IMG/VR virus record: IMGVR_UViG_3300025674_000430
Location: 1-22,780 of that record
Direction: 5' to 3' (one strand)
Source of the DNA: a virus
DNA length: 22,780 nucleotides
Part shown: in pieces, positions 84 to 11,719 of the stretch
Numbering within the stretch: position 1 is the first letter of the stretch
Layout: each line of letters starts with the position of its first letter
Translations under genes and position numbers: made by a program
The notes under the pieces: generated by a model
Database searches by the model: none
What the model saw: only the letters and a program-made list of their open reading frames with translations
What the model was told of the DNA's origin: nothing

Positions 84-707
84 ATGCCTTATGGTTATCT
101 AGGACAAAATCAACCTAATCAAACTGTTAATAATAGTGGTGTCTTTTCTATTACTGATGTAGCTGAACTTCAATCACAAGGAAAACTTGGTGGAAGTTTA
201 GAACTTATTGAGGAAAAAAATTTAACAGGCACAACACCAACTGCAATAGATTTTACAAATTTAAAAGAAAATGTATATGATGTGCATTTTTTAACTTATA
301 ACAATTTACAAATTACAGGTGGTGTAGACACCATAAGGGCAAGAGTATCCAATGATGGTGGAAGTACTTTTGAAAGCACAAGCAATTATGATAGTGCCAT
401 TCAGACAATGACTACTGGTGGAACTTTTAGTGAAGTAACAAGAACAAATTATGATGCTTTTGATAGAATTGGACAAAATGCAGTCAACCAACCATACAAT
501 GGTTATATCTATATATACAATGCAGGAAATAGTTCTAAATATACTTTTTTAACACACCATAATACTAACCAAAATGATGGATTTAGATTTGGTGGGCAGG
601 TTTATAAAGTTGCTGAAACTGTAAATGCTTTTAGATTATTTCTAACAACTTATGAATTTAAAGATGTAGGTAGTGTATTGAAACTCTATGGAGTAAAACA
701 GATATGA
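84..707 (+). CDS. Tail-array protein A (phage structural-type, unknown)
   Basis: 207 residues with no transmembrane segment and rich in Thr, Ser, Asn and Tyr. After an N-terminal stretch of about 45 residues (YGYLGQNQP..NSGVFSITDV) comes the core shared by all six array genes: an LELIE strand, an IDFTNL..YDVHF segment, a central SNYD, a SSKYTFLTHH block and a C-terminal strand ending LYGVK. The pattern suggests a beta-rich domain, as in small fibre or decoration proteins of uncultured marine phages; that comparison is from memory. It is the closest relative of the gene at 1773. AAAGGAG sits 6-7 bases before ATG, and the 3' end overlaps the next gene (ATGA). Virion location is inferred from context only. 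Confidence 0.75.
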   Translation: MPYGYLGQNQPNQTVNNSGVFSITDVAELQSQGKLGGSLELIEEKNLTGTTPTAIDFTNLKENVYDVHFLTYNNLQITGGVDTIRARVSNDGGSTFESTSNYDSAIQTMTTGGTFSEVTRTNYDAFDRIGQNAVNQPYNGYIYIYNAGNSSKYTFLTHHNTNQNDGFRFGGQVYKVAETVNAFRLFLTTYEFKDVGSVLKLYGVKQI

Positions 708-1249
708 GTAACCTAAGATTAATTAATGAAACTGAAATAACAACACCTGCAAATAAAATACAGATAACTGATGTATTTTCAGCAGATTTTGATATTTATT
801 GTATTGAAGTTGTAAATACTACTGCTGGAACTCAAAAAGAAAATAACCAAATGGACATAAGATTAATTAACAGTAGTGGAAGTGAAATAGCAACAACAAG
901 TTATGACCAAACTGCATTATTTTTTAGAGGTGTAACTGCTCTAAAATTAGGTAGTGCAAATAGAGATGATTTTGCATTGTTATACCACGATACAAGTGGG
1001 CAAAATGGTAATGGAAATATGACAATGTGGGTATTCAATCCATATTCAAGTTCAAGTTATACTTTTAACATACATCAAACAAGTGGGCAAATGTCTTATC
1101 CAAGTACTACTTCAATATCTTGTAATAGTAAAGGTATAGGTGTTTTGAAACAAACTACTTCTATAACAGGTTATTCATTTACAAACAGAGATGGCTATGA
1201 CATTAACACAGGAATATTTAGAACTTATGGATTGAGAGTAGATAGCTAA
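704..1249 (+). CDS. Tail-array protein B (phage structural-type, unknown)
   Basis: 181 residues holding essentially only the shared core: LRLINETEI, then IQITDVFSADFDIY, a TSYD motif, VFNPYSSSSYTFNIHQ, a GIGVLKQTTSITGY segment and a C-terminal RTYGLRVDS. It lacks the N-terminal extension of protein A. The best match within the window is the gene at 2414, with the shared FNP(Y/F).SSSYTF signature. The start overlaps the upstream stop by four bases and the stop overlaps the next ATG (TAATG), so translation is probably coupled. Family resemblance is to small proteins next to tail genes in uncultured marine phages (recalled, not searched). A role as virion fibre or decoration subunit is inference. 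Confidence 0.75.
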   Translation: MSNLRLINETEITTPANKIQITDVFSADFDIYCIEVVNTTAGTQKENNQMDIRLINSSGSEIATTSYDQTALFFRGVTALKLGSANRDDFALLYHDTSGQNGNGNMTMWVFNPYSSSSYTFNIHQTSGQMSYPSTTSISCNSKGIGVLKQTTSITGYSFTNRDGYDINTGIFRTYGLRVDS

Positions 1250-1770
1250 TGGCAGGACAATTAATTCAAGTAAATACTGCAACAGTTACAGTAGCAACAC
1301 CAAGTGTAACTCTTACAGGCATAGATAGTGATGATGTTTATATGTTTGCTTTTACAAATTTAGAAGTACAAACAGATGCTAGAAGTGTTGGCTTTAGAGT
1401 TACTGTTAGTGGAACTGCTGATACAAGCACTAATTATGATGAGGCTTATAAAGCATTGATTTCAACAGGTACTTTTGGAAATGGTTTTTTTACTAACCAA
1501 AACTTTTTTTTGTATTCACTTGGAGATAGTATAGGGACTGCTGGACAAGAAAAAGCAAATGGAATTGTTTACCTTTATAATTTTTTCAATGCTAGTGAAT
1601 ATTCATTTGCAACTTTTGAAACAACACAAATAAATAGTGGTGGTGTGCATAGAGGAAATGCAGGTGGTGGAGTTCATACTGTTGCACAAAGTTGTGATGG
1701 AATTTCACTTGTAGAGAGTTCTGGTGGAAATATTGTAGGTGGAACATTTACTTTATATAAGGTGGTATAA
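1249..1770 (+). CDS. Tail-array protein C (phage structural-type, unknown)
   Basis: 173 residues with the same core as its neighbours but a distinct subtype: MAGQLIQVN, VTLTGIDSDDVYMF, TNYDEAYKALISTGTF, YLYNFFNASEYSFATFE, a Gly-rich GGVHRGNAGGGVHTVAQS stretch and a terminal FTLYKV. Its partner is the gene at 2932, which shares MAGxLIxV/I, LTGIDS..DVY, F.NASEYSF.T.E and the Gly-rich turn. It has no signal peptide or catalytic motif. It starts on the overlap with the preceding stop, without a clear ribosome binding site of its own. It is most likely a beta-rich virion surface subunit; this is inferred from position and composition. Confidence 0.75.
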   Translation: MAGQLIQVNTATVTVATPSVTLTGIDSDDVYMFAFTNLEVQTDARSVGFRVTVSGTADTSTNYDEAYKALISTGTFGNGFFTNQNFFLYSLGDSIGTAGQEKANGIVYLYNFFNASEYSFATFETTQINSGGVHRGNAGGGVHTVAQSCDGISLVESSGGNIVGGTFTLYKVV

Positions 1771-1772
1771 CA

Positions 1773-2414
1773 ATGGCAGATGATTTGAAATATGGATATA
1801 AAGGTGCAGAACCAACACAAAGTTTTGGTAATAATACAGGTGTGTTTGACTCAAATGATATTAACAACCTTATAGCAGATAATAAATGGACTTCTTTTGG
1901 ACAATTAGAATTAATTGAAACTCAAGAAATAACTACTGCTACAAATGTTATAGATTTTACAAATTTAGGAAATTATAATGTTCATTTTATGACTGTTAAT
2001 AATGCTCATAATGAAAATGATAACAAAAGATTATCAATTAGATTTTTTGAAAATGGAGTATTAGAAAGTTCAGCAGTTTATCAAGTAGCTAGTCAGTTTG
2101 GTAGTGCTAGTAATAACTTTATTGAGGTTAGAAGTACTACTTATGATAGTTTGAGATTTGGGGATAATTTTGGTAGTGCTACCAATGAAACAATGCAAGG
2201 TTACTGTTATTTTTATAATTTGATAGACAGTTCAAAATACAGTTTTATAAGTTTTCATGCATCAACACAAAATAATGTTAATGTAAATTGTTTTGAATTT
2301 GGTAGTGGTGTTTTACCACAAGCAAGTACAGTAACAGGTATAAGACTTGAGCCAGCATATAGTTACAATTTATTAGAAGCAGACATATCTCTATATGGAA
2401 TAAGGTATTCATAA
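1773..2414 (+). CDS. Tail-array protein A' (second-copy paralogue)
   Basis: 213 residues, paralogous to the gene at 84 over the full length, including the A-specific N-terminal extension (KYGYKGAEPTQSFGNNTGVF against YGYLGQNQ...NNSGVF), the LELIETQEI and IDFTNLGNYNVHFMT segments and SSKYSFISFH. It starts two bases after the previous stop and opens the second three-gene set. Identity with the first copy is modest across much of the protein, so the duplication is old or the copies have diverged under selection, for instance on a host-contact surface. That is inference. No enzyme motif is seen. Confidence 0.75.
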   Translation: MADDLKYGYKGAEPTQSFGNNTGVFDSNDINNLIADNKWTSFGQLELIETQEITTATNVIDFTNLGNYNVHFMTVNNAHNENDNKRLSIRFFENGVLESSAVYQVASQFGSASNNFIEVRSTTYDSLRFGDNFGSATNETMQGYCYFYNLIDSSKYSFISFHASTQNNVNVNCFEFGSGVLPQASTVTGIRLEPAYSYNLLEADISLYGIRYS

Positions 2415-2932
2415 TGGCTACTAATTTAGAATTAATAAAATCTGAAACAATTTCTACAGGTGTTGGTGCAGTTACAATAGATAATATTTTTTCAGACAAG
2501 TATGATGTTTATGCTCTTACAGGTTATGGAAAAACAGATGGAACAGATAGTGCAAGTTTAAGAGGACAATTATTAGATAGTACAGGAACAGTAATAACTG
2601 CAAGTGAATATGATTATGCTTATTTAGTAATGTATGCACACCTAGCATTTGGAGAAAGTAGGCAAACAGGTACAACTTTTATTAATAATATTTTTGGTTC
2701 AGCAGATAATCCAGAAACAGGTAATGCAGTAACTTATATATTTAATCCATTTGATAGTTCAAGTTATACATTTTTTTTAACACAAAGTGTAGGTTTTCAA
2801 GATGGTAATACTAGAGGAAATAAATTAATTGGTGTTCATAAATCTGCTGAAAGTTGTAGAGGTTTATATGTTTATGCCAATGTTTTAACAAGAACTTGGA
2901 CAGGAAAAATATCAGTATATGGAGTTAAATAA
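2414..2932 (+). CDS. Tail-array protein B' (second-copy paralogue)
   Basis: 172 residues, matching the B-type gene at 704: N-terminal NLELIKSETI, ITIDNIFSDKYDVYAL-like segment, SEYDYAYLVM, YIFNPFDSSSYTFFLTQ, a KLIGVHKSAESC block and the end SVYGVK. It starts inside the TAATG overlap with the preceding gene and ends in the same kind of overlap with the next, so the second set is translated as one coupled unit. No membrane segment or catalytic residues are evident. The likely role is a minor virion component. Confidence 0.75.
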   Translation: MATNLELIKSETISTGVGAVTIDNIFSDKYDVYALTGYGKTDGTDSASLRGQLLDSTGTVITASEYDYAYLVMYAHLAFGESRQTGTTFINNIFGSADNPETGNAVTYIFNPFDSSSYTFFLTQSVGFQDGNTRGNKLIGVHKSAESCRGLYVYANVLTRTWTGKISVYGVK

Positions 2933-3438
2933 TGGCAGGTAGCTTAATAAAAATAGATGAAGTATTAGGAGATGATACACAATCTGCAATAGATTTAACA
3001 GGTATTGATAGCACCTATGATGTGTATGTTGTTAAAAGCAATATAAAAACATATACAACAGGTGGTGTTTTATATATAAGATTTGGTGCAAGTGCAAGTC
3101 CTGATACAACTGCAAACTATGATAGAGCAAATAAACAATTAAGATTTAGCTCAAGTTTTGACAATGTTAGTTCTACTAATCAAACAGGAATACAAATTTC
3201 AGCACTTTTAGGAAATGGGGAAATACATACAGGCATTTCATATTTATTTAACTTCAACAATGCAAGTGAATACAGCTTTATGACCTATGAATTTAATTCT
3301 GGAATGAATGATAGGGGTATGCAGGGTGGTGCAGTATTAACTGTTGCTGATAGTAAAGATTTTATAAGATTTTATTATGATACTACAAGCACTTTTGGAA
3401 CAGGAAGTGTATTGTCTTTGTATGGTTTAAAGAAGTAA
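2932..3438 (+). CDS. Tail-array protein C' (second-copy paralogue)
   Basis: 168 residues, matching the C-type gene at 1249: MAGSLIKID, IDLTGIDSTYDVYVVK, ANYDRANKQLRFSSSF, YLFNFNNASEYSFMTYE, GMQGGAVLTVADSKDF and LSLYGLKK. It closes the six-gene array; a 32-base gap with its own ribosome binding site follows before the next gene, marking the end of the coupled unit. Function is unknown. A surface fibre or decoration role is inferred from repeat structure, composition and position between presumed tail genes and the lysis block. Confidence 0.75.
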   Translation: MAGSLIKIDEVLGDDTQSAIDLTGIDSTYDVYVVKSNIKTYTTGGVLYIRFGASASPDTTANYDRANKQLRFSSSFDNVSSTNQTGIQISALLGNGEIHTGISYLFNFNNASEYSFMTYEFNSGMNDRGMQGGAVLTVADSKDFIRFYYDTTSTFGTGSVLSLYGLKK

Positions 3439-6514: not shown

Positions 6515-6866
6515 AACACTAAGCGACTATCAAAGTTGCAGAGTTGCCAATAGGCAAGTTAGTTACGTGTCGAATTGGGCACCTTTAGTACAGGAATACT
6601 TTGAAGAAGAAGATGTACATAAAGCATTAAGAGTTATTTATTGTGAATCATCAGGAATACCAACAGCATATAATCAAAACAAAAATGGAAGTAATGACGC
6701 AGGTTTGTTTCAGTTCAATAACAGAACATGGGATTGGCTAAAACCAAAACTCAATATTAAAAAATCAAGATATGACGCTGAAACTAATATAGCTGTTGCT
6801 TCATGGCTTGTTTATAATGATAGTTGGAAACATTGGAACGCAAGTAAGGAATGTTGGAATGAGTAA
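6459..6866 (+). CDS. Lysozyme/lytic transglycosylase-like endolysin with N-terminal signal
   Basis: 135 residues from GTG 6459, picked over TTG 6453 because GAGG sits seven bases before it. The first ~14 residues are hydrophobic (MIGLLLQVACLIPQP), fitting a signal peptide; the Cys after VA is a weak lipobox candidate. The catalytic domain shows VIYCESSG (putative catalytic Glu about E63), a GSNDAGLFQFNNRTW block and a terminal AVASWLVYNDSWKHW..S.ECW, the signature of SLT/lysozyme-fold proteins in phage endolysins. It would cleave the glycan strands of peptidoglycan. If exported by its own signal, the holin may only trigger its release or activation. It overlaps the next gene by eight bases. 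Confidence 0.75.
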   Translation: MIGLLLQVACLIPQPLTPETLSDYQSCRVANRQVSYVSNWAPLVQEYFEEEDVHKALRVIYCESSGIPTAYNQNKNGSNDAGLFQFNNRTWDWLKPKLNIKKSRYDAETNIAVASWLVYNDSWKHWNASKECWNE

Positions 6867-7791
6867 ATACAAAGTACGTTATGCAGTTATGTCGCATAGC
6901 AGAGAAGCTAATGTTCCATTAATGCAAGATTTAACAGATAAAAATTTATATTGGTATGTTCCAAAATCACAAGTGCAAAGATACAAAGACGCAGGTGCTA
7001 GATATGTTGTAGGTGTAACGGAAGAAAAAGTAATGCCTATGAAAGTGCAACAACAAAACAAAGCATTGTTAGACGCACATAGAGTAGGTGCATATTTAGT
7101 TATGTTAGATGATGACACAGAATCATTTGAAGAATTAACATACAAAGATAGCAAAAGTGCAAAGAAGCGTAGTGTTCCTATGGACTATGTTACTTATAAA
7201 GTAATTATGGAACTTGCTGAAAGTCCATATTATTTAGCAGGTATTAGCAGAAATCAAAATCCATTTTTTAATAACTTCAAAACTAACAATGCTTGTATGA
7301 TACATGGACAATACAGAATATTTAAACCTGTAAAAAATGTTAAAGATTTAATATTATCTGATGAAAGTCAAAATGAGTGGAAGCGAATAAGCAGTTTAGA
7401 AGATATTGATATGTCTATTGCACACATGTATTTTCATAAAGGAGTTGTAAGAGTTGAAAGTTTATGGGCAATTACACCACCTAGTTACTATCTCAATGTA
7501 GGAATGCATGGTGGTTACAATGGAGATGACGAAGATGAAGTACAAGCAAATCACGAAAAACGTATAGAAACATTTTGTTCTGATATGTATATGTTATTCA
7601 CAAAGTGGAGTGATTGTGAAAATGATATTTTAGGTAATGGTTGGGATATAAAAAAAGGCAAGACCATGCAAGAAAACAAAATCAAAATACCATGGAGAAG
7701 ATTAGGTAATAAAGGATTTGCAAAAAATATAAAATACGCAACAAGAAACAAATATAATCCTATAATACATAACAAGTACAAAACAATGTAA
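6859..7791 (+). CDS. TET-associated glycosyltransferase-like protein 1 (DDD motif)
   Basis: 310 residues starting at ATG 6859 (AAGGA eight bases upstream; an in-frame ATG at 6796 lies inside the lysozyme and lacks a site). The N-terminal half has a GT-A-like plan: YAVMSHSREANVP near the start, YWYVPKSQVQRYK, and VMLDDDTESF with D84-D86 as likely nucleotide-sugar/metal ligands. Then comes an NNACMIHGQYRIFK stretch and SLEDIDMSIAHMYF (E181-D182, candidate catalytic region). The tail after about 240 is basic. This resembles the TET-associated glycosyltransferase group, thought to glycosylate oxidised bases in phage DNA. Sugar and base are unknown. First of three such genes here. Confidence 0.7.
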   Translation: MSKYKVRYAVMSHSREANVPLMQDLTDKNLYWYVPKSQVQRYKDAGARYVVGVTEEKVMPMKVQQQNKALLDAHRVGAYLVMLDDDTESFEELTYKDSKSAKKRSVPMDYVTYKVIMELAESPYYLAGISRNQNPFFNNFKTNNACMIHGQYRIFKPVKNVKDLILSDESQNEWKRISSLEDIDMSIAHMYFHKGVVRVESLWAITPPSYYLNVGMHGGYNGDDEDEVQANHEKRIETFCSDMYMLFTKWSDCENDILGNGWDIKKGKTMQENKIKIPWRRLGNKGFAKNIKYATRNKYNPIIHNKYKTM

Positions 7792-7804
7792 CCAAAGGAG
7801 ATGT

Positions 7805-8491
7805 ATGTCTGAACGTATAGATAAACTTGAATTTGAACAAGTAGATATAAATTCACTAAGTGAATATCCTGATAATCCAAGAATTGGAGATGTAGATAAG
7901 ATTGCTGAATCTCTTGAAACTAATGGACAGTACAGACCAATAGTTGTTAATAAAAGAAACAATCAAATACTTGCAGGTAATCATACTTGGAAAGCAGCTA
8001 AACAAATAGGTTGGGATACAATCTATGTTTCATTTGTAGATGTTGATGATGATACTGCTAAAAAGATAGTTCTTGTTGATAACAGAGTTAATGATTTAGC
8101 AGAATACAATGCAGAAACTATGTCAAAAATGCTTAATGAACTTATGGATTTAGGAGAGCTTATTGGTACAGGTTTTAATGCTGATGAAGTTGATGATATG
8201 TTATCTTCATTTGACGCAATAAGTGAAACTGAATTTGAGGAGTTTCAAGGTGGCTACGCAATGTCTGATGAAGAAATTGAAGAAGTCAAAGAAAGACGTA
8301 AAGAAAATAAACGTATTGAAGATGGCGACAGGTTTCATGATATCTTGTTGTATTTTAAGACAGAGGAGTACAACGAATATAAAGAAATGATTAATGCTTT
8401 AGCTGAACATTTTACAACTAACTTAACTGACGCTTGTTTACAATCAGTAAGATACGCATACGAAAATCTTGTTGAAAAAAAAAATGAGTAA
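7805..8491 (+). CDS. ParB-like protein of a base-modification cluster
   Basis: 228 residues. Residues 8-100 form a ParB/sulfiredoxin-type domain: VDINSLSEYPDNPRIGD, IAESLETNGQYRPIVV, ILAGNHTWKAAKQIGW and VDNRVNDLAEYNAETM. The usual GERR of ParB is replaced by GNHT (58-61), as in the actinophage-type branch. The remaining ~110 residues are very acidic then helical (EEIEEVKERRKENKRIEDGD). Such proteins occur repeatedly next to TET/JBP dioxygenases and glycosyltransferases in phages, with no firmly known reaction. Chromosome-type partitioning is unlikely, since no ParA or parS-like array is seen. AAAGGAGATGT precedes ATG; the next gene begins immediately after its stop. Confidence 0.75.
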   Translation: MSERIDKLEFEQVDINSLSEYPDNPRIGDVDKIAESLETNGQYRPIVVNKRNNQILAGNHTWKAAKQIGWDTIYVSFVDVDDDTAKKIVLVDNRVNDLAEYNAETMSKMLNELMDLGELIGTGFNADEVDDMLSSFDAISETEFEEFQGGYAMSDEEIEEVKERRKENKRIEDGDRFHDILLYFKTEEYNEYKEMINALAEHFTTNLTDACLQSVRYAYENLVEKKNE

Positions 8492-9286
8492 ATGGAAAAA
8501 ATCAAGTTCTGTATTCCTAGCTATCAAAGACCTAATAAACAAGCAACTTTAGAATACTTAGTTAAATTAGGTTATAAAAAAAATGAAATATTTATTTATG
8601 TTCAAGAAGAAATTGATGAATATTTATACAAATATAATTGGAATGATTTAGCAAATATAATCTACAAACCTGCTTATAACATAGGTAGTGCAAGAAACAA
8701 TATTTTAGATGATTTAGATATTGGCGAACAAGCAATAATGCTAGATGATGACGTTAGGCATATTAAATATTTAAGAGATTCAAAATTATATACAATACAA
8801 AGCAGAGAACAACTAGATAAAATTATTGATACCGGTTTTACTGAAGCAGAAAAATACAATGCAAAACTATGGGGATTTAATACGTACTCTACACCAATGT
8901 TTATGTGTGGTCGTTGGGAAAAAGAATTACAGAACATGATATATGTATGGTTTGGAATAATTAATTCAGGAATAAAGGTAGATGTTAAGCAACAAGTATT
9001 TGATGATGATGATTATGTAATTAGACATTTGTTTGAGGGACATAAAGTTTTACGATATAACAGATATTGTTTAGGACATACTATGGCTAGTGTTGGTACA
9101 GAAATGGCTAGGCAAAGAAACAATCAAGAATATTTTGATAGTCAATTAGATTACATGAAACAAAAGTATGGAGATTTTATTTATTTGTATCATCATAAAA
9201 CATACAAAAGAAACTATCCTAAATTACAGAAAGACTTTGTTAAAAAAGGATTGATTAAAGATAAGAGGATTGAGCAATACAAATGA
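8492..9286 (+). CDS. TET-associated glycosyltransferase-like protein 2 (DDD motif)
   Basis: 264 residues. FCIPSYQRPNKQATLEYL at the N-terminus, IFIYVQEEIDEY, then YNIGSARNNILDD (about 62-74) and AIMLDDDVRHIKYL with D85-D87 are the signature of the TAGT/GREB1-like glycosyltransferase group as I know it. A second acidic run, VFDDDDYVIRHL (D171-D174), and a GHTMASVGTEMARQRN segment complete the GT-A-like domain; the C-terminus is basic. Expected role: transfer of a sugar to a hydroxylated base in phage DNA made by the dioxygenase at 10320. It starts directly after the ParB-like stop and overlaps the next gene by four bases. Confidence 0.75.
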   Translation: MEKIKFCIPSYQRPNKQATLEYLVKLGYKKNEIFIYVQEEIDEYLYKYNWNDLANIIYKPAYNIGSARNNILDDLDIGEQAIMLDDDVRHIKYLRDSKLYTIQSREQLDKIIDTGFTEAEKYNAKLWGFNTYSTPMFMCGRWEKELQNMIYVWFGIINSGIKVDVKQQVFDDDDYVIRHLFEGHKVLRYNRYCLGHTMASVGTEMARQRNNQEYFDSQLDYMKQKYGDFIYLYHHKTYKRNYPKLQKDFVKKGLIKDKRIEQYK

Positions 9287-10044
9287 ACATATACATACCG
9301 ACTCTAGGCAGGACAGAAAAACAAATAACATTAAGTAATCTACCAACTAACTTGTATGACCAAACATACTTAGTATGTGTAGAAAATGAAGCAGACTCTC
9401 TTAAAAAGTATGGTGTTAAATTATTAGTTACGCCACCTGAAGTTAAAGGTATTGGACCAACAAGACAATACGTTATAGATAATACAAAAGATAAACACAT
9501 ATTGTTCTTAGATGATGATTTAAAATTTTACAAAAGATATAAAGATAAAAAATTAAAGAAAGCTACACCTGAACAGTTTAATCAATTACATACGTGGATA
9601 AATTGGACACTTGAAATGGGATATCCAATGGTTGGTGTTTCAGCACAAGCAGGTAACAATAGATACGATATGAATTTTGCTTACTTGCAGAGAATGTTTA
9701 CAGTTTATGGATTAAACACAGAGTTTCTAAAAGAAAGAAATATTAGATTTGATGAAATGCCTTTAATGGAAGATTTTAATGTTGCACTAAAAGTAATTAG
9801 GAATGGTTACAAAACAATAACAAATACAGAATGGGCACACACACAATCTAATAGTAATGCTTCAGGTGGTTGTTCTACCTATAGAGATTTTGAACTTCAA
9901 AAGAAATCTGCATTTATGTTAATGGAGAAACACTATCCTTATGTTAAAGTAGTTAAAAAGAAAGCAAAGTCTTGGGAAAACATGGAAGAAAGATATGATG
10001 TGCGTGTTTATTGGAAGAAAGCGTACATTGAGGGTACATATTAG
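9283..10044 (+). CDS. TET-associated glycosyltransferase-like protein 3 (DDD motif)
   Basis: 253 residues. NIYIPTLGRTEKQITLSNLP opens the domain, followed by YLVCVENEADSLKKYG, GIGPTRQYVIDN (57-67) and ILFLDDDLKFYKRY with D77-D79. LMEDFNVALKVIRNGY (E163-D164) and WAHTQSNSNASGGCSTYR (H186) mark the acceptor/catalytic half. It is clearly related to the gene at 8492 in plan but much diverged, so it probably has a different acceptor or donor, for example adding a second sugar. It shares the ATGA overlap with gene 2. A 117-base gap follows. Confidence 0.75.
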   Translation: MNIYIPTLGRTEKQITLSNLPTNLYDQTYLVCVENEADSLKKYGVKLLVTPPEVKGIGPTRQYVIDNTKDKHILFLDDDLKFYKRYKDKKLKKATPEQFNQLHTWINWTLEMGYPMVGVSAQAGNNRYDMNFAYLQRMFTVYGLNTEFLKERNIRFDEMPLMEDFNVALKVIRNGYKTITNTEWAHTQSNSNASGGCSTYRDFELQKKSAFMLMEKHYPYVKVVKKKAKSWENMEERYDVRVYWKKAYIEGTY

Positions 10045-10161
10045 CCATATAAGACGTTTATTTTATTGACGTGCAACGTTGTACCACGCTGACACTACCA
10101 TATCTTAAATGGTCTTAAACGTTCTCTCAGGGATATATTGTAGAAAAGAGGAGTAATAGAC

Positions 10162-10323
10162 GTGCAAAAATTGATAGATATACTTAAAGATATAGATATA
10201 AGCAAATATTCACAAGATGAGTACAGAAACATTGTTCAAGAAATATTTGAAGTTTGGTATAATGAAAGAATCAACAAAGTATTAGACAAAGTTGGTTGGA
10301 GAGATTTTGGAGGTAGTGGTTGA
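10162..10323 (+). CDS. Small unknown protein preceding the dioxygenase (53 aa)
   Basis: A frame of 53 codons from GTG 10162, with GAGGAG about eight bases upstream, ending at TGA 10321-10323. The product (QKLIDILKDIDISKYS..., then EIFEVWYNERINKVLDKVGW) is acidic-to-neutral and probably all-helical, with one long amphipathic helix. Its last codons carry the GGAGG that serves the TTG start of the dioxygenase, and the stop overlaps that start, so the two should be translationally coupled. It could be a small partner of the dioxygenase or just a leader peptide; no homologue is recognised. Confidence 0.6.
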   Translation: MQKLIDILKDIDISKYSQDEYRNIVQEIFEVWYNERINKVLDKVGWRDFGGSG

Positions 10324-11180
10324 TTGACATAAGATTAAGAAGCAAAGTTAGTCAAGAAGAACTGAAACAAAAAATAGGTAAGATACTTACTGAAGAAGAT
10401 TACAATTTAGTTATTCATAAAGACACAACATTACGTGGTCCAAATGGAGAACTCATTGGTGTTTTTCAAAAAGGGATTATTCCTGAAGATATTATGGAAC
10501 AAACATATCCTACATTACATGAACTCAAAGCGTTGCAATCTAACAACAGAGGATATGCTAGTGGATTACCTAGAATAAAAAGAGGAAGTAGTGGAAGAAC
10601 TGATACTGCTAAACCAATATCATCAGCAGTTGTAGGAAGCATGGATAAAGCAGGTCCAAGACAGTATTGCAGATTAACTGCTTTTAGTGGTAAGCAAACA
10701 AAAGAGTATGAAAAATTGTTTCCTTTATTTGTTTTTATTGGAGAACAGATGAAGAAAGTAGCACCTCAAAGGTGGCAGAATCAAATGGACATGGTTGATA
10801 AAACACATAAAGATTGGGTAATACCTAACACACCATTTACAACAATTACTGTAAATAACAGTTATCCAACAGGAGTGCATACTGATAAAGGAGATTTAGA
10901 TGAGGGGATATCAACATTAGCTTGTATTAAACGTGGCGATATGCAAGGTGGTTATTTAGTGCTTCCTGAATACAGAGTCGCATTCAAAATGGACCATGGG
11001 GATTTATTAGTTTTTGACGCTCATCAATGGCATGGTAATACTGTACTTGAAGCTAATTCAGATGACGCAGAAAGAATAAGTGTTGTATGCTACTACCGAA
11101 CAAAAATGGCTGAGTGTGGAAGTATGGTAGAAGAATACGAAACAATGATAAGTAAAGGAGAATCAAAGTTAGCTAAATGA
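10320..11180 (+). CDS. TET/JBP-type Fe(II)/2-oxoglutarate dioxygenase
   Basis: 286 residues from a TTG start, supported by GGAGG (10309-10313) six bases upstream. After a ~110-residue N-terminal region with a basic Gly/Ser stretch (about 84-97), the dioxygenase domain shows PRQYCRLTAFS, VIPNTPFTTITVNNSYPTG, then VHTDKGDLDEG (H187 and D189 as iron ligands), GGYLVLPEY, GDLLVFDAHQWHGN (H238, possibly H235, as third ligand) and ERISVVCYYR (R252, 2-oxoglutarate contact). This is the phage TET/JBP pattern. Such enzymes oxidise the methyl of 5-methylcytosine (or a thymine methyl in JBP) in DNA to hydroxymethyl. With three glycosyltransferases upstream, the product is probably glycosylated. The base target cannot be told here. 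It overlaps the next gene by four bases. Confidence 0.85.
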   Translation: MIDIRLRSKVSQEELKQKIGKILTEEDYNLVIHKDTTLRGPNGELIGVFQKGIIPEDIMEQTYPTLHELKALQSNNRGYASGLPRIKRGSSGRTDTAKPISSAVVGSMDKAGPRQYCRLTAFSGKQTKEYEKLFPLFVFIGEQMKKVAPQRWQNQMDMVDKTHKDWVIPNTPFTTITVNNSYPTGVHTDKGDLDEGISTLACIKRGDMQGGYLVLPEYRVAFKMDHGDLLVFDAHQWHGNTVLEANSDDAERISVVCYYRTKMAECGSMVEEYETMISKGESKLAK

Positions 11181-11719
11181 GTGCACAAATCAAACCTACA
11201 GGACACGTAGAGTGGGACGCTGAAAATGAAACATTTGAAGAATACAAAGTAAGACGTTCAGCAGGTCGTTCAGGTATAGGGCAATCTAACTCTCAAAAAA
11301 ATATGGCAGGTAAATGTACAGTTACCAATAAAATCAAAACTAAATGTGATTGCAGAACTTGTATCAATAGACGCAATCGTTCTAAAGGTAGGAGAAAACA
11401 AAATCAAGCACGTAAGTTATTAAAAATTCCTAACAATAGGTTTCATGGTGCAGACGCACATGAAGAAAATTGGAATACAGGATTACGTGTTGAAGTTAAA
11501 GCAGGTAAGCAAGTTGAGGGATTAAGTAAAGTGTTTTATAAGTCAAAGAAACAAAGTGATTTATCTCATCAATCTTTTGGTGGAAGTAGCAAACCATTTG
11601 TACAAATGAGTATGCCTGATAATTCAAGTAAAGGGATTATAAGTTTTGAAACAGACGATATTGAAAATGTCTGCGTTGAGATACTGAAAAATTTTGGTTA
11701 TGATTTTGGCGATAGTTGA
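11177..11719 (+). CDS. Cys-rich, PD-(D/E)XK nuclease-like protein
   Basis: 180 residues. A Cys cluster (C47, C57, C59, C62; KCDCRTC) is followed by a very basic run (INRRNRSKGRRKQNQARK), then HEENWNTGLRVEVKAGKQV with E106-x-K108 and a downstream KKQSD, which looks like a PD-(D/E)XK nuclease core (E...ExK...Q). The C-terminus resumes as FVQMSMPDNSSKG and a final helix. Actinophage proteins of the same plan are known to me as uncharacterised or Holliday-junction-resolvase-like. It could resolve branched phage DNA before packaging. It is coupled to the dioxygenase and is the last rightward gene before the convergent junction. Confidence 0.6.
   Translation: MSAQIKPTGHVEWDAENETFEEYKVRRSAGRSGIGQSNSQKNMAGKCTVTNKIKTKCDCRTCINRRNRSKGRRKQNQARKLLKIPNNRFHGADAHEENWNTGLRVEVKAGKQVEGLSKVFYKSKKQSDLSHQSFGGSSKPFVQMSMPDNSSKGIISFETDDIENVCVEILKNFGYDFGDS

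Follow-up and report, generated by a model that had tools for sequence, protein, structure and literature searches.

Which DNA base is the substrate of a phage operon that combines a TET/JBP dioxygenase with three TET-associated glycosyltransferases (TAGTs)? The question arose from a 22,780-base stretch of DNA (the window), which is the whole of IMG/VR record IMGVR_UViG_3300025674_000430, is classed as viral and is probably a genome fragment. A first-pass annotation of the sequence had described positions 6859 to 11719 as a candidate hypermodification cluster, in which a ParB-like protein and three diverged TAGTs accompany a TET/JBP dioxygenase. Pfam searches, structural models and coordinates all agreed with this description, and every gene position that had been given was matched. 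The genes form a plus-strand run, followed by terminase and portal genes, in this order:

6859..7791 (+): glycosyltransferase (GT) 1, GT1, a divergent TAGT-type (GT-A) enzyme with DDD at 84–86 and ED at 181–182 (Pfam TAGT 2.6e-4, below the cut-off; PHROG 842, 5e-6; phmmer, residues and fold model)
7805..8491 (+): ParB_N-domain protein with a GNHTW motif (Pfam ParB_N 1.2e-9)
8492..9286 (+): GT2, a TAGT glycosyltransferase with DDD at 85–87 (Pfam TAGT 2e-10)
9283..10044 (+): GT3, a TAGT glycosyltransferase with DDD at 77–79 (Pfam TAGT 1e-17)
10163..10323 (+): small open reading frame (ORF) of 53 amino acids with a GTG start and AGGAG upstream (sequence; homologues before TET)
10320..11180 (+): TET/JBP Fe(II)/2-oxoglutarate dioxygenase with H187, D189, H238, R252, R260 and D192 (Pfam Tet_JBP 3.4e-29; AlphaFold model; PDB folds)
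11177..11719 (+): conserved downstream ORF of 180 amino acids with CxC-x2-C and EVKAG (homologues directly after TET)

We consider it likely that the products of this operon glycosylate thymine in already replicated DNA of the phage itself, by way of 5-hydroxymethyluracil (5hmU), giving a counterpart of base J. The cluster itself is real and had been correctly spotted. It has the dioxygenase motifs H187-x-D189, H238 and R252, none of which varies among 39 relatives, and no C5-methyltransferase was found in the window, as had been noted. The claim of one DDD per transferase near residue 80 held for all three positions and fell short only for GT2, which has a second DDD at residues 171–173. What found no support was the suggestion that the base substrate comes from a methyltransferase elsewhere: thymine, with a 5-methyl group of its own, is most likely the substrate in place of an enzymatically methylated base, because relatives of the operon show no C5-methyltransferase yet have thymidine-hypermodification genes in the same slot.

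The 286-amino-acid dioxygenase scored 101.6 bits against the Tet_JBP profile (cut-off 34.9, E 3.4e-29). Its AlphaFold (AF2) model had a mean predicted local distance difference test (pLDDT) score of 91.9 and is TET-like, the best 26 PDB fold matches being to NgTet1, CcTET, TET2 and CMD1. A direct phmmer search against PDB sequences returned nothing useful, whereas a profile search did reach TET2, and no Pfam match to a J-binding domain was found in the protein. In the profile alignment, the TET2 segment R-I-S-L-V-F-Y-Q-H ends at H1904, which we take to be a base-contacting residue, and the window protein reads R-I-S-V-V-C-Y-Y-R260. The residue at the H1904 site was Arg in 87 of 88 sequences of the window's TET clade (the search pattern did not match L073, which was left uncounted) and Asp in all 57 readable sequences of the type found in the Methylophilales phage Melnitz-3. 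This difference is consistent with a thymine substrate and makes Arg260 a candidate residue-level handle on base choice. As a matter of annotation, the TET/JBP genes of DLP6, Cr30, S-CBWM1 and HTVC112P carry the misleading GenBank label "SNF2 DNA repair protein."

The survey for C5-methyltransferases covered 50 IMG/VR records of the clade, most of them fragments, of which 21 span 30–109 kilobases. None of the 50 had a PF00145 match above the cut-off (there was one weak partial match), and no C5-methyltransferase was found in any of six complete clade phages (HTVC112P, P12024L, DLP6, Cr30, C48C1 and S-CBWM1). The control set consisted of records whose TETs closely resemble the one in Melnitz-3, and 48 of 50 did contain a C5-methyltransferase. 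In the two exceptions, L141 and L148, the TET match starts ≤28 bases from the end of the locus or contig, so an upstream neighbor could have been lost. Since the control represents one close-knit clade, it shows that the search works and establishes no general rule. An off-contig C5-methyltransferase in the phage genome was rejected as the substrate source because whole-record searches of the relatives found none.

The neighbors of the related TETs were of a different kind. The nearest TETs, 63–71% identical to that of the window, include several in operons with an amino acid:DNA transferase (ADDT, PF18724), a P-loop kinase (PF18751), a flavoprotein and a GNAT acetyltransferase. In L021, L022 and L023 (TETs ~63–69% identical), genes for ParB, ADDT, flavoprotein and P-loop kinase precede the TET; L022 adds an acetyltransferase, and L018 has ParB and the kinase. 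Work by Lee et al. in 2018 and 2022 reportedly has ADDT/kinase-type enzymes acting on 5hmU in DNA, which is said to be the handle in hypermodification of the M6, ViI and PaMx11 types. In the classical M6 and ViI systems, 5hmU is made from dUMP by a thymidylate-synthase homologue. No thymidylate-synthase/hydroxymethylase (PF00303) was found in any of the 50 clade records, so that such an enzyme was rejected as the 5hmU source and the TET is the only visible 5hmU producer.

Across the same records, we counted the kinase in 31 (25 above the cut-off), ADDT in 31 and a TAGT in 11. ADDT was present in only 1 of the 11 TAGT records vs. 30 of the 39 remaining ones (Fisher p 8e-5, which is only a guide since the records are related). 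Local profiles found neither kinase nor ADDT/aGPT-Pplase in the window, both of which occur among the sister operons L021, L022 and L018, and the TAGTs of the window appear to occupy their slot. When 90 loci were classified with local profiles, 50 had only kinase/ADDT, 29 only a GT, 4 both and 7 neither, some of the last being truncated contigs. Along the TET tree, the GT and kinase/ADDT labels change ~13 times, and the window's strongly supported TET clade of ten contains five GT and five kinase members. Copies in cultured bacteria come in both forms, with ParB, ADDT, flavoprotein, kinase and TET in Streptomyces africanus and ParB, GT and TET in Haloechinothrix alba.

Three further observations concern these modules. 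A small TET clade (L045, L056 and L057) has kinase, ADDT and TAGT together and may combine sugar and amino-acid chemistry. An FkbM-type methyltransferase gene follows ParB-TET in the Pelagibacter phage HTVC112P (L001:8497-9195) and at L074:9347-10081; its product might O-methylate 5hmU as a possible third second-step module. Finally, the kinases of L018, L021 and L062 match PHROG 800, over its N-terminal part; that family carries the annotation terminase small subunit, and the match could stem from fusions of a kinase with a terminase or from an incorrect annotation.

Assignment of the transferases was uneven. The Pfam search bore out GT2 (41.4 bits) and GT3 (65.2 bits), as it had Tet_JBP, and left GT1 under the TAGT cut-off of 27.5 bits (21.4 bits, E 2.6e-4). 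GT1 nonetheless matched the TET-adjacent GT of L044 by phmmer (E=1.5e-10), and its R15, D84-D86 and E181-D182 are common to TAGT-family proteins. The best PDB matches of its AF2 model (pLDDT 73) were GT-A glycosyltransferases and nucleotidyltransferases. The homologues, the conserved residues and a GT-A-like fold of modest quality suggest that GT1 belongs to the TAGT family. Its ATG, at 6859, overlaps the 3' end of the upstream SLT gene. No match to GT1 or GT2 was found in named phages at 1e-5.

In a tree, GT1, GT2 and GT3 fell into three different TAGT groups. The support was 94 for the grouping of GT1 and 92 for that of GT2, which joins lone TET-adjacent GTs of other phages; both placements are tentative because both proteins sit on long branches. 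Only the window's lineage showed three TAGTs at one locus; each other GT-bearing locus that was read had a single GT, belonging to one or another of the three types (GT1 type in L031 and L044, GT2 type in L068 and L081, GT3 type in L012 and L065). GT3, 77% identical to the L012 GT and 51% to the L065 GT, is the conserved partner among the three. That there are three transferases makes several sugars plausible, and the occurrence of each type alone beside a TET leaves parallel addition of different sugars as open as a chain.

TAGTs found with GT3 also occur in the isolated Brevibacterium phage LuckyBarnes, where a thymidylate-synthase-like protein, two tandem TAGTs and a 5-hmdU DNA kinase helical domain (HMUDK, 4.6e-68) stand in a row (L163 6601-10616). 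We predict that this row encodes another glycosylated-thymine or mixed pathway. Phage ctUhy936 has one TAGT beside a hydroxymethylase similar to that of LuckyBarnes. The T4 Asp179 site governs the choice between dCMP and dUMP (PMC6400193), and both hydroxymethylases appear to have Asn, not Asp, near it (aligned by eye, with a one-residue length difference), which would favor dUMP.

From the gene content, we infer the following route. The TET/JBP enzyme would convert thymine in DNA to 5hmU by hydroxylating its 5-methyl group, making a methyltransferase unnecessary. A TAGT, most likely GT3, would then glycosylate the hydroxyl of 5hmU with a nucleotide-sugar as donor, and GT1 and GT2 would extend the adduct with more sugars or put other sugars on 5hmU. 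The ParB-like protein probably guides the enzymes to DNA, and the product would shield the genome from restriction. The same logic operates in kinetoplastids, where JBP1/JBP2 oxidize T in DNA without a methyltransferase and a glucosyltransferase then caps 5hmU to give base J (PMC10276184). The window has the gene architecture of that oxidase-then-glycosyltransferase scheme, and its activities are predicted to follow it; the window differs in consisting of phage genes, with three transferases, a ParB-like partner and no matched J-binding domain. Closer at hand, ParB, a tet-like J-binding protein, aGPT-Pplase2 and a 5-hmU kinase form a cluster in phage Tonitrus that is described in print as serving thymidine hypermodification (PMC11955845). 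The 5hmU handle is shared with such systems, and the window's close relatives have the same ParB, TET/JBP, ADDT/aGPT-Pplase and kinase; the window itself has TAGTs where kinase and ADDT stand.

Phage TETs acting on 5-methylcytosine (5mC), TAGTs and thymidine hypermodification are each already known. A literature search of limited scope turned up no phage TET/JBP-TAGT route to glycosylated thymine. The usual description of phage TETs is as 5mC enzymes; a large clade that lacks a visible C5-methyltransferase and switches between sugar and amino-acid modules points to thymine instead. We would give roughly even chances to the broader proposal that the phage TET/JBPs of this clade are thymine oxidases, that the TAGT-paired ones make base-J-like or oligosaccharide-bearing thymines as the prokaryotic counterpart of kinetoplastid base J (and perhaps its ancestor), and that the second step has been swapped between sugar and kinase/amino-acid chemistry. 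Whether base J originated in phages, as proposed, could be tested directly on isolates, among them Nonlabens phage P12024L with its lone TAGT, and on prophage-type copies in cultured actinobacteria.

Several points weigh against the thymine pathway. The use of thymine is drawn from relatives, the clade records are mostly fragments and not independent of one another, and the window too is only a fragment. The kinase matches are to Ploopntkinase3, whose 5hmU activity in the clade phages is putative. The Arg260 argument is built on a weak alignment to TET2, and we know of no TET of the window's clade with a tested activity. Moreover, T6-like TAGTs glycosylate cytosine (PMC13390438). The T6-type enzyme, a beta-glucosyl-HMC (hydroxymethylcytosine) alpha-glucosyltransferase of PHROG 842, belongs to the same Pfam and PHROG families as the GTs of the window; it differs in acting on hydroxymethylcytosine that is made as a nucleotide before replication (PMC13390438). 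In one alternative, a C5-methyltransferase of the host, or of the phage but encoded off the contig, makes 5mC, which the TET oxidizes to the 5-hydroxymethylcytosine that the TAGTs glycosylate. Oxidation of 5mC is the characterized activity of phage TETs according to Burke et al. 2021, as cited in PMC12730594, and the cytosine activity of T6-like TAGTs and the fragmentary state of the window also speak for this route. The Melnitz-type 5mC systems do resemble the window in their TET fold and often in having glycosyltransferases nearby, but they differ in the C5-methyltransferase beside the TET (48/50) and the Asp at the H1904 site, whereas the window's clade has none and has Arg. Given that contrast, with 0/6 complete phages and 0/50 clade records positive, and given that orthologues of the window TET sit with ADDT and kinase, we regard the 5mC route as unlikely.

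A variant that keeps 5hmU as the TET product is a closer contender, and we put it at somewhat under even odds: the three TAGTs would act in parallel, each with a different sugar, yielding a mixture of mono-glycosylated thymines and no chain. This would suit other phages in which one or another of the three GT types is the only GT next to the TET; against it, a T6-like TAGT adds a second sugar onto the first (PMC13390438), and the long branches of GT1 and GT2 mean that their acceptor may have changed. It is very improbable that the GTs act on virion or host glycans and that the cluster is a chance neighborhood, even though GT-A enzymes have many roles and GT1 matches TAGT weakly, because a TAGT lies close to the TET in 29 kinase/ADDT-free loci and is largely exclusive with the DNA-modifying module. 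We attach slightly less probability still to a TET that acts on a different base or methyl group, N6-methyladenine (6mA) for example, as CcTET can. The fold matches include CcTET structures with bound 6mA DNA, and an N6/N4 methyltransferase lies near the P12024L TET, but this adenine methyltransferase was seen in one relative only, and it is not obvious how an adenine product could serve as acceptor for the ADDT/kinase chemistry of the sister operons. The glycosylated-thymine pathway remains our preferred reading.

The remaining genes of the run are shared with relatives as well. Of 34 loci with long flanks, 30 have a ParB-domain gene near the TET, nearly always upstream, which marks it as a core component across most of the clade; the four loci without one are the isolates P12024L, DLP6, Cr30 and C48C1. 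The small ORF sits between GT3 and TET behind a good ribosome site, with its stop overlapping the TET start. Its homologues stand just before the TET in L012, L013, L015, L017, L018, L020 and L021, and its GWxDxGGxG end is kept in relatives of both the GT and the kinase type. Homologues of the 11177–11719 ORF lie directly after the TET in 16 cases, the window included, among the nearest relatives and whichever module they carry. The protein had no useful match in Pfam, PHROG or NCBIfam; its CxC-x2-C and EVKAG motifs suggest that it is perhaps a nuclease of the PDDEXK type.

An NCBIfam search of the cluster proteins gave no useful name except for ParB, and no near-identical DNA was found among the named phages searched. 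Another metagenome contig, L003, has a nearly identical gene arrangement. Upstream of the cluster, at 84–3438 (+), the window carries six tandem paralogous genes encoding proteins of 168–213 amino acids, two of which were sampled and had no Pfam match. The pairs 84/1773, 1249/2932 and 704/2414 among these genes suggest duplication of a three-gene block.

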